Assembly (NCBI GenBank): GCA_008330645.1
Contig: VLTN01000040.1
Coordinates: 186,001 to 250,000, forward strand
Direction: 5' to 3'
DNA length: 64,000 nucleotides
From: Cafeteria roenbergensis
Taxonomy: Eukaryota > Sar > Bigyra > Bicosoecida > Cafeteriaceae
Part shown: in pieces, positions 28,694 to 37,320 of the stretch
Numbering within the stretch: position 1 is the stretch's first letter
Layout: every line of letters begins with the position of its first letter
Translations under genes and position numbers: made by a program
The notes under the pieces: model-generated
What the model saw: only the letters and a program-made list of their open reading frames with translations
Told to the model about the DNA's origin: nothing
Database searches by the model: none

Positions 28694-28953
28694 GCCTCGC
28701 GCTCCGTTCGTGTGCGTCTGCGGGGGCCGGCGACTCGCACCTTCGAGGCGCCACCTCTGGCAGAGCCGCCGTCGCGGCAGCGGGCCACGCGAGCCGAGCC
28801 TGCGCGCTGGCAAGCCGAGGGCGGCACCCGGCGAGCGGCACTGGCCCTGCGCCCGGCGGACCCCCTGCGACCCCCGGCTCCGTGCCGGCCCTCCTGAACA
28901 GCGGCAGCCGCCCCGACCCACCGGCCGGCCGCTTGCGCCGGGCAAGTTGAAGC
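28694..28953. promoter_or_regulatory. Candidate bidirectional promoter, SHMT/WASHC3
   Basis: 260 bp between divergent start codons, GC-rich, no TATA box. Inferred from layout only. Confidence 0.45.
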
Positions 28954-29559
28954 ATGGCAGACGCAGCAGCCGCTGGGGCGCCTCCCGAGGACGACGCCGT
29001 GCCCATCAAGCAGGCGCTTGTGCTCATCAACACGTTCGTCACAGACACTACGTCCTTTCTGAACCGCTTCGCGGCCATGGCGGACGACCGCCTCCGCACT
29101 GTGGAGAAGCAAATCGTGGGGATTGAGAAATCCCTGCTTGTGCTCGAGGGCAAGCTCAACTCCGTCGAGGGCCTCACCAGCGCCGCCCCTGCGCCCAGCA
29201 CAGCTGCAGCACCCGCTGCCGCAGAAGTGCCGGCTGAGGCGCCGCCCGCGGCCCCTGCAGCACCAGCCGCACCCCCTGCCCCCGCGCAGGCGCCACCGGC
29301 CCCTGCCGGCGCGCCGCCCGCGCCCGCGCCAGCGCCGCCAGCTGAGGCCGAGCAGCCCGCAGCGGAGCCAGCACCCGCAGCGGTGATGACCGTGCGCGAG
29401 GACCCCGCCTACTCGACCTACTTCGCCATGCTGCGGATGCGGGTGCCAATGGGAGCGGTCAAGGTCAAGATGTCCTCGGAGGGCCACAACCCTGACCTGC
29501 TGGACACCCCAGACGCGCCGTCGCCGAACGCGTCTGCGCTGGCCGTCGTTCCAGAGTAG
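28954..29559 (+). CDS. WASHC3: WASH complex subunit 3 (CCDC53)
   Basis: 201 aa, single exon. The N-terminal helical region (VPIKQALVLINTFVTDTTSF and FLNRFAAMADDRL, followed by VEKQIVGIEKSLLVLEGKL) matches the coiled-coil core of CCDC53, including FLNRF and the LEGKL heptad end. A Pro/Ala-rich linker (about residues 70-140) leads to a conserved tail: YSTYFAMLRMRVPMGAVKVKM, then SSEGHNPDLLD, which is the hallmark VP..A...KM..EG.dPdlL motif. By family it is a structural subunit of the WASH complex, which activates Arp2/3 on endosomes. The length is normal for the family (about 190-200). Start fixed by the only upstream ATG in frame. Confidence 0.9.
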   Translation: MADAAAAGAPPEDDAVPIKQALVLINTFVTDTTSFLNRFAAMADDRLRTVEKQIVGIEKSLLVLEGKLNSVEGLTSAAPAPSTAAAPAAAEVPAEAPPAAPAAPAAPPAPAQAPPAPAGAPPAPAPAPPAEAEQPAAEPAPAAVMTVREDPAYSTYFAMLRMRVPMGAVKVKMSSEGHNPDLLDTPDAPSPNASALAVVPE

Positions 29560-30040: not shown

Positions 30041-33000
30041 TCAGTTGTCGTCATCCGCGGCCTCGGAGCCGTCGAGGTCGGCCGCGTCGTCTGACTTGCG
30101 GGACTCCTCCGCTGCCTTGAGCGACTCTGCGAAGCGCTCGCAGGCGGCCAGCGCCTGGTAGTCCTCGTCGTCGGGCTGGAGGCTCTTGAAGCAGTAGCGA
30201 GCAGCCCGGCGCACGTTCTCGAGGATGCGGAAGCGGGCGTGGTCCTTGTCCTGCTTGTGCCAGATCTCGACCTTGAGAGACTCGAGGTCCGGGCAGGCGA
30301 CGAGGGCCCGCGCGAGGTTTCTGATGGAGACCTCCTGGTTGCCGGCGAGGTTGAGCGAGACCAGCTTGGGGCAGGCGCGGGCAATGGCGGCAAAGCCGGC
30401 TCCAGAGATGCTCTCGCAGCCGCGGAGGGAGAGGTGGCGCAGGTCGGGGCACTTGGTGCAGAGGCTGCTGGGGGTGCCGACGAAGGCCTCGTCCGTGAGG
30501 CGGTGGCACCCGTCAAAGTTGGCCCTCTGCAGGCCGGGGCAGTGTTCTGCCAGCGCGTGGACGGCTCCATCGGTCATCTGGTGGATGCCTTCGAGGTCAA
30601 TGTATCGGAGGTTGGGCACGCAGGCCGGCAGAGCCATGAGGTTCGGCAGAGCGAGCTGCAGCATGCCGCCGAGGCGAAGGGCAGTGAGCTCGGGGCAGTA
30701 GCGCAGGATGATGATGAGGGCCATGGGGTTGATGTTCGCGCAGCCGTGAAGGTCGAGGGAGCGCACCGGAGAGGCGAAGGAGGCGGGCACGGGGTCCGAC
30801 ATGCGCTGGAGCGGGGTGGGGGGCAGCCACGTCGCGGTGCCGTTCACCGTGGGGCCATGCCGCTCTGTGATGGCCAGCGGCCGGGGCTGGGCAGTGGCGC
30901 CAAAGGCTGGCGCCGGGATCCAGGTGACGACGTCGGCCGGGGAGATGTCGTCCATGAGAGCCTTCTGGAGCGTTGCGATGGTTGCGGGGTGGCCTCTGAC
31001 GGCTCTGCTGGCCGCCTCCTCGGCGCGCTCGCTCGCGCTGCTGGCGGAGGTGGGGCGGGCCATTTCCTCCGCGACCGCTGCCTCTGCCGCTGCGAGGGGC
31101 GCCTGCCACGGCGAGACCCAGTTCGAGCGGGAAGCGATGTGCTCCTGCATCGCCGGAAGCGACATGTTGACGGCGGTGAAGAGGAAGTAAGGGTCGACGG
31201 CCTTGCCGCGCGAGTCCAGCATCGCAAAGGCGGAGCCGGGAGCCGCACCAAGCGACATGGTGGCGGGGCGCAGCGTGGTGAGTTTGGCCGCCTTGGCCAG
31301 GTCCTCCTCCTCCTCCGAGTCGTCCTCTTCCTCCTCCGAGTCGGCGCCATGCCCGGCCGAGCCGGCCCTGGGCGCCGCAGTGGCAGGAGCTTCGCGGCCG
31401 TCAATGGAGCCTGCGACGGCGGCGCCGCGGACGCTGTCCACTTCGCTGTCGGTATCCGGGGCGGAGGCGGCGGTGGGGGACTGCGGCTCCGTCGCGTCGT
31501 CGGCGCCGGACTCCCCGCGGGCTGCCGCGCCGCTGGGCAAGGCAGAGAGCTTCTCCGTTGCGACGTCGACGCTGCCCAGGGGCAGGCGGCTCAGGCGCAT
31601 GTCAAAGAAGCCGGAGCGACCCGGGACCTCCTGCGCCCGCAGGGCAGGGTCGTGGTCCTCGTTGTCGTTGGCCACATCCAGCGCATTCTGTGACGCCTCG
31701 TCGTCGGCCTGGCCAAGCGCCACGATGTCGCGGACGCGGCGGACAGGAATGCCTCGTGTGGTGGCCGCCGCAACCTTGAAGAGAGCCACAGGGCTCTTCG
31801 TGTCGCTGGAGGGGAAGCCTGGCCGGAGCGACTCGAGCTTGATCTCCGCCCACGCGGCGATGGCCGCCCGCGCCCGCAGGGAGGGGGCGGCGGTGACACG
31901 CGCGCTGAAGGTCTCCTTGTTGATCATGGGCTGCTCCACCCACACGGGGCCGACGCCGGGGATGCACGCGCCGGCTCCTGGCTTGGTGCTGTAGCCTCGC
32001 CTGAGCACTGCGCCGTCGGGGAGGTCCTCCGTGAGGGGGTCCCTCGGGGCCACGCGGGCATGCTCGCGGCCAGACTCCGCGAGCTCCCTCTGCCCGCTGT
32101 CGTAGGCCACGGCGACGTTTCGGGAGGTGAGCGCGACGGAGAGGCGGTCGTCGACGGGACCCCGAAGCGAACTGAGGTCGCGACGGATGGAGCTCAGCTG
32201 GCCGTAGGCTGGGGTGCCGGCGAAGGCGGACGCGTCGCGGATTGCCAGGGCCTCGGCGCGGGACATGGCCCGGAGCGTGCGATTGACGAAGAGGTTGAGG
32301 AAGGCATCGAGGAGGCGGCGGGGCTTCGGCTGGGTCTTGAAGAGCCAGCGTTGCGACGTGCTGGCCTCGATTGGGACGGGGTTGCTTGTGGCGCCCCGGC
32401 CGCTGTCGGCGAGGAAGTCGACGGCGTTCTCGGGGGTGGTGAGGTTGAACGGCATGGCCGCGTCCTTGCCAAGTGCGCCGGCGCGGCCGGCGGAGGCGGC
32501 GGGGCCGAGGGAGTGGCTGCGGCGGGAGGCCGGAAGAGCAGCCGCGGAGGCAGCCGCGCCTGCAGAGGCGGCGGCTGCGCCTGCGGCGGAACCGCCCGTC
32601 GCGGTGCCTGGAGCAGAGGCCTGGCGGCCCAGGCCGGCCTCCTCTGTATCCAGGGCCGTCTGGGCGGGGCTCAGGGCGCAGGGGTCGCTTGCGGGACCGT
32701 CGGGGGCGAAGGCCACACGGTGCGTGTCGGCGGGGCGGACGGACGGGTCCTCAGTCGCCACGGAGTAGGCATGGGGGCGCAGGCGGATGGGAAGCCCGAG
32801 GAACATGGCGAGGTGGCCGGCAGTAGCCCAGCGGCAGCGGGCGAGGGACAGGTGGTTGAGGCACCAGCGCGAGCGCGTGGCCACGTTGAGGAGGAGGCGG
32901 AACGGGGGCTCGTTGACGCCCGGGCAAAACGCCCCGATGCGGATGGTGCTCAAGACGCCGCTGGTCGTGACGGTGCTCTCCCAGCTGCGGGAGACGCATG

Positions 33001-34717
33001 CGCAGCTGAGGAGGTCTGGGAGGGAGAGGAAGGCCAGCGCGCGGCGGAGGACCCGGGTGGGGAGGGCGCTCAGCGACCTGGGAGCAGGGGCACATGCGTT
33101 GGCGGCGGAAGCTGCAGCGCCCCGCTGGAACGGCGACGATGACGACGCGCGTCCGTCGGCGCCCTGCGCAGATCCCTCCCGCGACAGGGCTGGGGTCCCC
33201 GCTCTGCTGGGGGTGCCGCGGTCGTCTTCGTGTGCCCCGGTCTCGAACGCGGCGTCTTCCACGCCGTGCTGCCCCGTGGCGTCGCCGTCGTCGTCCGTTG
33301 CCGACCGCGGGCCGGCGGCATCGGCATCGGATGCAACGCGGATGAGGCGGGGAGGGCCTCCGTCCGCGGAACCGACGTGGCTGAGGCTTGTCTGCGTGAG
33401 CTGCGTGTCCCCGGCAGCGGCAGCAGCGGCGGCAGAGCGGCTGGGCGCAAGAAGGCCAAGGCGGAACTGCCTGCCTGTGACGAGTGGCGCCGAGGCCGCT
33501 GCCGTCGGCGGCGAGGGCGAGGGGCTGCCCGCGGCACTGCTCCCGTCCGCGCCCTCGCCCTCAGCGGCGGCGGCTCCCTCCTCGTGCTTCATTCCCAGCT
33601 CCAGCGCCTGCTTAGCGGCTTGTGAGGAGGTTTCGGGAACGCTGCCTGTCATGGTCTTGAAGGCGTACAGGCTCGGAACGACTGGAGTGTGATGGAGCAG
33701 CGGCATGCCTGTGACGGACACCTCCAGAACCTGCACAGCGTAGCGCGCCTGCGTGTCGTACAGCATCTCGACCACGTCTCCAGAGTACAGTCTGCAGAAC
33801 TTGGCCTGCTGCACGCGCGCGTGCTTTCGCCTCGCAAACGACACGATGCGGAAGGTGTTCTTCCCGGTCTGCGAGGCGAGCAGCGACCGCACAGCACGCA
33901 CCAACGCGTAGAGCACACAGCAGGTGTCGCAGTGGACTCAAGGCGCGGAGAGGGGGCAATGGAGCCTCCTTGCGTTGGCGAAGGCGCTGTCGAGCCCTTC
34001 GAACTGGCCCACCACCCGGCGAGCTCTCGCCCCAAGCATCCACGCTGTCCCCACGGGGCTTGGGGCGCTGCACGGACGGGCCAAGCGCGTGCCAGTGGCA
34101 CCTGCCACGAGCCAGCAGGCGCGACGCGAGAGGAGGAGCACGGCCGCGAAAGCATGGAGCGAAAAAGCTGCACCACTCGCGCTCACGTTGTGGGCCAACA
34201 GCAAAGCCCGGCCATGCAGGTCATAGTTGACGGATATGCAAAGGTGCCGCCTGGAAATGTGCTGATTGTCCAGGGCATGGGCGTCGTTCCGGCCGATGGT
34301 GACGCTTGCGTTCACGGGAACGTCATCTGCGGCTCGGCAAGCGGCGGCGGCGAGGTGGCAAGTTTGCTCCGGGCAGCGGGATCGGGTCCCCCGCGCCCGC
34401 TGGCGCGCCCTGCCGTCCGCCTGGGGCGCAATCGCTCCCGCTCTGGCCCGCGGCGAGCACGCCTGCCGCGATGGCAGTCTTGGGGGCAAGCGGCGGGGCC
34501 TGGCGGACCTGCGGCAGGCTGCGTTCTCACAGATGGACTCTTGCCCCTCGCCGTAGAGAGGAACAACGATGAAGCGCGTCTGCTGCCTGGGGCCTGCTGC
34601 CGCGGCATCGTCGTCAGCAGCAGCGGCCATTGTGGCAGGCCGCTTTGCCTTGAGCTCGTTCGCGCTGCTGCTTCTGGGCCTCTTGGTGCGCGCTGGGCCG
34701 ACGGACGACTCCGACAT
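30041..34717 (-). CDS. FHA / F-box / leucine-rich-repeat protein
   Basis: Model complement(join(30041..33868, 34187..34326, 34531..34717)), 1384 aa; both junctions keep phase (1 and 0) and together rebuild one FHA domain. FHA (about residues 50-160): RFIVVPLYGEGQESIY, VTIGRNDAHALDNQHISRRH (GR, then SRRH in place of SxxH), AHNTGKNTFRI across the second junction, and YSGDVVEMLYD. F-box (about 372-415): LSALPTRVLRRALAFLSL followed by DLLSCACVSRSWES. C-terminal LRRs (about 1135-1320) are AMN1/FBXL-like: LDLHGCANI, YIDLEGIHQMTDGAV, ANFDGCHRLTDEAF and LSLRGCESISGAGF. FHA domains bind phosphothreonine peptides, F-boxes bind Skp1 in SCF ligases, and LRRs bind substrate. Long Ser/Ala/Glu-rich linkers separate them. 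A phospho-dependent SCF receptor is inferred. I know of no standard family with this order. Confidence 0.85.
33869..34186 (-). other. Intron inside the FHA domain
   Basis: 318-nt phase-0 intron, donor GTGAGC after the codon pair for His-Asn, acceptor CAG before Thr-Gly-Lys-Asn. It splits the FHA domain between its beta strands. The frame runs open through the donor into the intron, so unspliced RNA would give a truncated FHA-only product. Confidence 0.8.

Positions 34718-35135: not shown

Positions 35136-37320
<2,185 letters not shown>

Follow-up and report, generated by a model that had tools for sequence, protein, structure and literature searches.

On the minus strand of a 64,000-nucleotide stretch of the Cafeteria roenbergensis genome (bases 186001-250000 of contig C40; hereafter the window), a three-exon gene running from 34717 to 30041 encodes a predicted protein of 1384 amino acids (aa) without an internal stop. 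From its N terminus, the protein carries a divergent forkhead-associated (FHA)-like domain, an F-box and leucine-rich repeats (LRRs) of the FBXL type (Table 1), an architecture that may belong to a substrate receptor of an SCF (Skp1-cullin-F-box) ubiquitin ligase. An initial annotation of this DNA had proposed the gene, and its coordinates, splice junctions and protein length of 1384 aa proved exact. Genome searches covered an assembly of 36,303,456 bases in 167 contigs.

To assess the gene model, we computed codon log-likelihoods in 120-base intervals from 35100 to 29900 on the gene's strand, with a model whose training set was 3097 codons from six frames of this genome (two from cullins, four from FHA genes). 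Exon 1 scored 0.8 to 2.5 in the frame of the gene and at most -9 in both other frames (34740-34500). Exon 3 was positive throughout in the gene's frame, except for four intervals between 33540 and 33000 (-1.1 to -4.0) that take in the start of the F-box. The score of exon 2 was weak (0.7 in the interval inside it, with -9.3 and -29.9 in the other frames). In the gene's frame, the interval wholly inside intron 1 scored -13.3, with another frame at +0.5, and the three inside intron 2 scored -9.6, -4.9 and -2.2, although in two of these the other frames were more negative still. Scores fell to -10 or lower wholly upstream of the gene (-9.9 in one interval) and to -13.4 after the stop codon. Exons 1 and 3 are thus clear, and exon 2 leans more on its FHA match and on the splice sites. 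The introns begin with GTGAGA and GTGAGC and end with CCGCAG and TCGCAG. By eye, four introns from cullin genes of this genome likewise start with GTGAG and end with CAG. Exon 3 is a single uninterrupted frame that encodes the FHA-like domain from TGKNTF onwards (its second half) together with the F-box and the LRR, so these are not separate neighbouring genes, in agreement with the proposal that FHA and F-box share one chain. Both intron lengths are multiples of three, so that retention would not shift the frame, although a retained intron 2 would run into a TGA. Retention of intron 1 (34530-34327) would add 68 aa inside the FHA-like domain with the frame kept, and it is possible that the two introns (34530-34327 and 34186-33869) act as a splice switch. 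Methionines occur at aa 144, 164 and further on, and internal starts at these positions or later could possibly yield a form lacking the FHA-like domain.

The F-box and the C-terminal LRR are the best-defined parts of the predicted protein. The F-box family PF00646 (cut-off 20.5 bits) matched with 31.7 bits in the full protein (E 1.3e-7), 35.5 bits when the domain was excised and 37.2 bits in the genome search, which makes the profile-based F-box assignment firm, as the initial annotation had it. Against the Protein Data Bank (PDB), the F-box piece gave weak matches, with FBXL2 first at E 0.16; this alignment extends into a single LRR-like segment that follows the F-box. The main LRR matched 19 PDB sequences at E <= 0.001, with FBXL2 (1.8e-23) and FBXL17 (2.7e-20) in front and FBXL5, Rad7, TIR1 and Skp2 also among them. 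When folded alone with AlphaFold and without an alignment, it was predicted to form a repeat solenoid (mean predicted local distance difference test score (pLDDT) 69.3, predicted template modelling score 0.66), with blocks of 10 residues at pLDDT 67-91 across residues 31-190 of the folded piece. A Foldseek search with this model returned 87 matches at E <= 0.001, the first three being FBXL17 (6wcq, 6w66) and FBXL2 (6o60) at TM-scores of 0.46-0.55 on the query. Sequence matches and predicted fold together support the earlier claim of an FBXL-type LRR, and the assignment, with FBXL2 and FBXL17 as nearest solved relatives, is firm. Seventeen further, weaker matches to the main LRR were found in the genome, as expected of a common repeat. 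The initial annotation had not remarked that the LRR is split: the LRR-like segment is separated from the main LRR by about 660 residues, 20% of them alanine. A 309-aa piece of this stretch had no Pfam match at E <= 0.1, and nothing fell within the stretch at E <= 1 in the Pfam scan of the full protein. FBXL2 and FBXL17 likewise have an F-box followed by LRRs; to our knowledge, they have neither an FHA domain nor about 660 inserted residues separating F-box from main LRR.

We next considered the N-terminal region, in which the motifs GR, SRRH, TGKNTF and SGDVVEML had been recognized; we located them at aa 74 (GRND), 87 (SRRH), 110 (TGKN) and 138 (SGDV). The Pfam FHA profile matched the spliced piece with 18.9 bits (E 0.0021) over profile positions 1-65 of 67. 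Exons 1 and 2 alone gave 14.9 bits over positions 1-28, the intron-bearing read-through gave 13.7 bits over positions 1-29, the exon 3 piece alone had no match, and none of six shuffled versions of the domain matched FHA. The claim that splicing restores a complete FHA domain therefore holds for the extent of the match, which grows from positions 1-29 to 1-65; the domain is nevertheless divergent and remains under the Pfam cut-off. Of 15 FHA candidates in the genome, 13 were matches, none of them in the window, because the domain is split over exons here. From eight of the 13 (L001, L003, L004, L006, L007, L008, L029 and L031) together with CHFR and Rad53, we built a local FHA profile, leaving out L002, L005 and three partial matches (seven were used in alignment A2). 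This profile scored 25.2 bits on the domain and 19.7 bits on the full protein. Of 5000 shuffles, the highest-scoring reached 13.8 bits and the next 6.6; among 624 open reading frames (ORFs) of the window, the best unrelated one scored 5.6 and this gene's own unspliced ORF 16.6. The residues of the phosphate pocket, G74-R75 (Gly-Arg) and S87 and H90 (Ser-x-x-His), are kept in register with known FHAs. These results suggest that an FHA-like domain is very probably present in divergent form.

Several results weigh against this assignment and against a receptor built on it. The Pfam scores of 18.9 bits (excised) and 13.2 bits (full protein, E 0.12) lie under the cut-off of 20.7, and an E of 0.12 does not rise above noise: of the six shuffled domains, two hit some unrelated family with E values of 0.12 and 0.27. 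Against a profile built from 59 bacterial FHAs, the domain scored 13.3 bits, mostly from the GR...SRRH half, and the full protein 8.0 bits, less than the best of 5000 shuffles (10.3); the next unrelated ORF of the window scored 0.4. Probabilities from hhalign were 35, 86 and 41% (P-values 4e-4, 5e-6 and 2.8e-4), the domain had no sequence match in the PDB, and NCBIfam and PHROGs searches gave no match. The only N-terminal piece folded was the intron-bearing read-through, which began at aa 43 (exon 1), ran through both introns into exon 3 and had the TGA read as W; at a mean pLDDT of 37.2, its model was discarded as a view of the FHA fold, an 11-stranded beta sandwich, and bacterial FHA rows were dropped as its alignment because their C-terminal halves failed to align to exon 3. 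As for relatives, the FHA region found three matches in the genome at E <= 1, all its own exons, and the F-box region found one, itself; a search of viral contigs for relatives of the exon-3 protein gave 39 stretches that matched a pattern, none of which was confirmed, and a DNA search had two matches, one to this gene and one of 101 bases at 75% identity. The sub-threshold Pfam score, the one-sided bacterial match and the missing PDB match would be expected if GR and SRRH were a chance match in the variable N terminus of an ordinary FBXL protein that has no FHA domain. However, the local-profile score was reached by none of the 5000 shuffles and approached by no unrelated ORF, and the Pfam match spans nearly the whole profile only after removal of introns that have independent support. 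We consider a chance match improbable.

The conserved Asn-Gly loop is a further point on the negative side, as it is altered to K112-N113-T114. N113 falls on the Gly in the MAFFT alignment and on the Asn in the profile alignment, so that the position of the Asn that contacts the phosphothreonine backbone depends on the alignment. Together with the Pfam score and an Arg-to-Ser spacing of 12 residues, compared with 14 in L001, the genome's strongest FHA match, and 15 in Rad53, the K-N-T loop would fit an FHA fold that has been kept while phosphothreonine reading was lost, leaving a plain protein-protein or dimerization module on an ordinary FBXL receptor. The pocket Gly-Arg, Ser and His, all in register, argue against such a loss, and we regard it as rather unlikely. 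L001 sits just upstream of a frame recognized by eye as a protein kinase, a Chk2-like arrangement, and canonical FHA signalling thus probably coexists in this genome with the divergent domain.

A receptor of this kind would need its partners. Profile searches indicate that the core SCF parts are encoded in the genome: Skp1 gave one match (78.8 bits, two candidates scored), cullins 13 stretches on five contigs and RBX1-type zinc fingers 18 matches, 11 of them over the cut-off. Three F-box matches at E <= 0.001 were obtained (17 candidates scored), the best of which is this gene. These six-frame counts are lower bounds; with the best of so few Pfam F-box matches, this gene could encode a major receptor in this protist. 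The other two F-box matches at E <= 0.001, L034 and L035, showed no LRR or FHA by eye. It is also conceivable that the protein does its work apart from an active SCF ligase and uses the FHA-like domain for localization. In a Toxoplasma study, FBXO13, FBXO14 and FBXO1 pulled down Skp1 with Cul1 undetectable (PMC11570480), a precedent for such a role. Against it, the structures that rank highest in the fold search with the LRR include several SCF or Skp1-bound ligases, and both Skp1 and cullins are encoded in the genome, and we think a role outside SCF quite improbable.

Together, these data support the proposed order of FHA-like domain, F-box and FBXL-type LRR in one chain, with the partner machinery encoded in the same genome. 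From the sequence features, we estimate a probability of about 0.5 that the protein is an FBXL-type SCF substrate receptor with a divergent N-terminal FHA domain in cis. We infer membership in an SCF complex, phosphothreonine binding by the FHA-like domain and its ligand. In such a receptor, the F-box would be the docking site for Skp1, with the LRR holding a client or co-receptor, as in other members of the family, and the FHA-like domain would provide a second, phosphothreonine-dependent contact that couples recruitment to a kinase signal. Its partner could be the client itself, which would give two-point recognition, or a threonine-phosphorylated scaffold, which would place the ligase. More tentatively, at somewhat less than even odds, the gene could represent a class of SCF receptors with a built-in phosphothreonine reader, in which a kinase signal on one partner gates when or where the client of the LRR is ubiquitinated. 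If so, a single receptor could recognize one protein while marking a second, and FHA signalling, familiar from RING ligases, would gain a link to cullin ligases. Binding of the FHA-like domain to the protein's own linkers found no support. We counted T..[DE], T..[ILV], TQ, SQ and [ST]P in two linkers (10 comparisons), and most counts were near the shuffled expectation; the largest excesses were in linker 1, where [ST]P occurred seven times against 3.4 expected (reached by 16 of 500 shuffles) and TQ twice against 0.5 (47 of 500).

The proposed class would be a cullin-ligase counterpart of RNF8 or CHFR. RNF8, CHFR and yeast Dma1/Dma2 likewise join an FHA domain and ubiquitin-ligase function in one chain; they are RING-type ligases not known to have an F-box and LRR, whereas here the FHA-like domain is on the receptor subunit, and no RING was found among the eight Pfam families that matched the full protein at E <= 1. 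The FHA structures of CHFR and RNF8 are among the PDB matches of L001. Pellino also has an FHA domain within a ubiquitin ligase; its catalytic part is RING-like, and it is not known to have an F-box or LRR. Skp2-Cks1 and Cdc4/beta-TrCP are likewise SCF receptors steered by phosphorylation, but the phosphate is not read by an FHA domain. In Skp2-Cks1, it is read by the accessory protein Cks1. One source describes a WD40 propeller as the phosphate reader of Cdc4/beta-TrCP, the recruitment of Pellino, with its FHA domain, to phosphorylated p53, and a strict requirement of FHA domains for phosphothreonine (PMC8786283). No family with FHA, F-box and LRR appeared in the titles and opening lines of abstracts among the matches listed, and no paper in the library searched joined 'Cafeteria burkhardae' and 'F-box'. 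The word 'FHA' occurs 0 times in the main text of F-box papers on Dictyostelium, Toxoplasma and trypanosomes (PMC9485057, PMC11570480, PMC12816148), the accessible part of EvoProDom has F-box and FHA as separate entries only (PMC8409312), and the single mention of FHA in the GALA-LRR paper is a reference (PMC2244805). The pairing of FHA with F-box and LRR might thus be new relative to the literature searched, a claim we make weakly; the FBXL kind of receptor is already known.

Table 1. Features of the FHA/F-box gene, its neighbours in the window, and matches elsewhere in the genome
Feature	Position	Strand	Description
Exon 1	34531..34717	-	Start codon at 34717, Ala-rich N terminus, start of FHA-like domain
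Intron 1	34327..34530	-	204 nt, GTGAGAAC...GAGCCGCAG, GTGAG...CCGCAG; multiple of three, no in-frame stop
Exon 2	34187..34326	-	FHA-like core: GR (aa 74-75), SRRH (aa 87-90)
Intron 2	33869..34186	-	318 nt, GTGAGCGC...CCTCGCAG, GTGAG...TCGCAG; multiple of three, one in-frame TGA
Exon 3	30041..33868	-	Uninterrupted 1275-aa frame: second FHA-like half, F-box, LRRs, stop codon
FHA-like domain	33704..34579	-	aa 47-164 over three exons; Pfam match aa 71-143
F-box	32960..33073	-	aa 375-412; PF00646
Single LRR-like segment	32798..32884	-	About aa 438-466, soon after F-box; read by eye
Main C-terminal LRR solenoid, FBXL type	30245..30769	-	About aa 1143-1317; PF24758, E 2.4e-7
ATP23-like M76 peptidase	35136-36042	-	PF09768, 22.3 and 17.0 bits in two pieces, cut-off 25.2; HEMQH by eye
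CCDC53, WASH complex subunit	28951-29559	+	130.5 bits; convergent with FHA/F-box gene
Histone H3 frame	36492-36749	+	Recognized by eye; runs to ...EFKTDLRFQ, departs from H3 sequence mid-gene
L001	G000:C30:165951-169148		Strongest FHA of the genome, 77.4 bits; nearest PDB FHAs CHFR and Rad53
L034	G000:C70:64500-70000		Other Pfam F-box match at E <= 0.001; no LRR/FHA by eye
L035	G000:C50:186000-190500		Other Pfam F-box match at E <= 0.001; no LRR/FHA by eye

The window has a G+C content of 67-74% per 2-kb step. A prokaryote promoter and terminator scan, which means little for this organism, gave nothing, and a tRNA search of the window found none. The bounds of the FHA/F-box gene are set by its neighbours on either side, the ATP23-like peptidase gene upstream on the same strand, which ends near 35136, and CCDC53, which ends near 29559. 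The two pieces of the ATP23-like match lie in different frames and so probably flank an intron, and the point at which the H3 frame leaves the H3 sequence likewise suggests that this is probably an intron-bearing histone gene.

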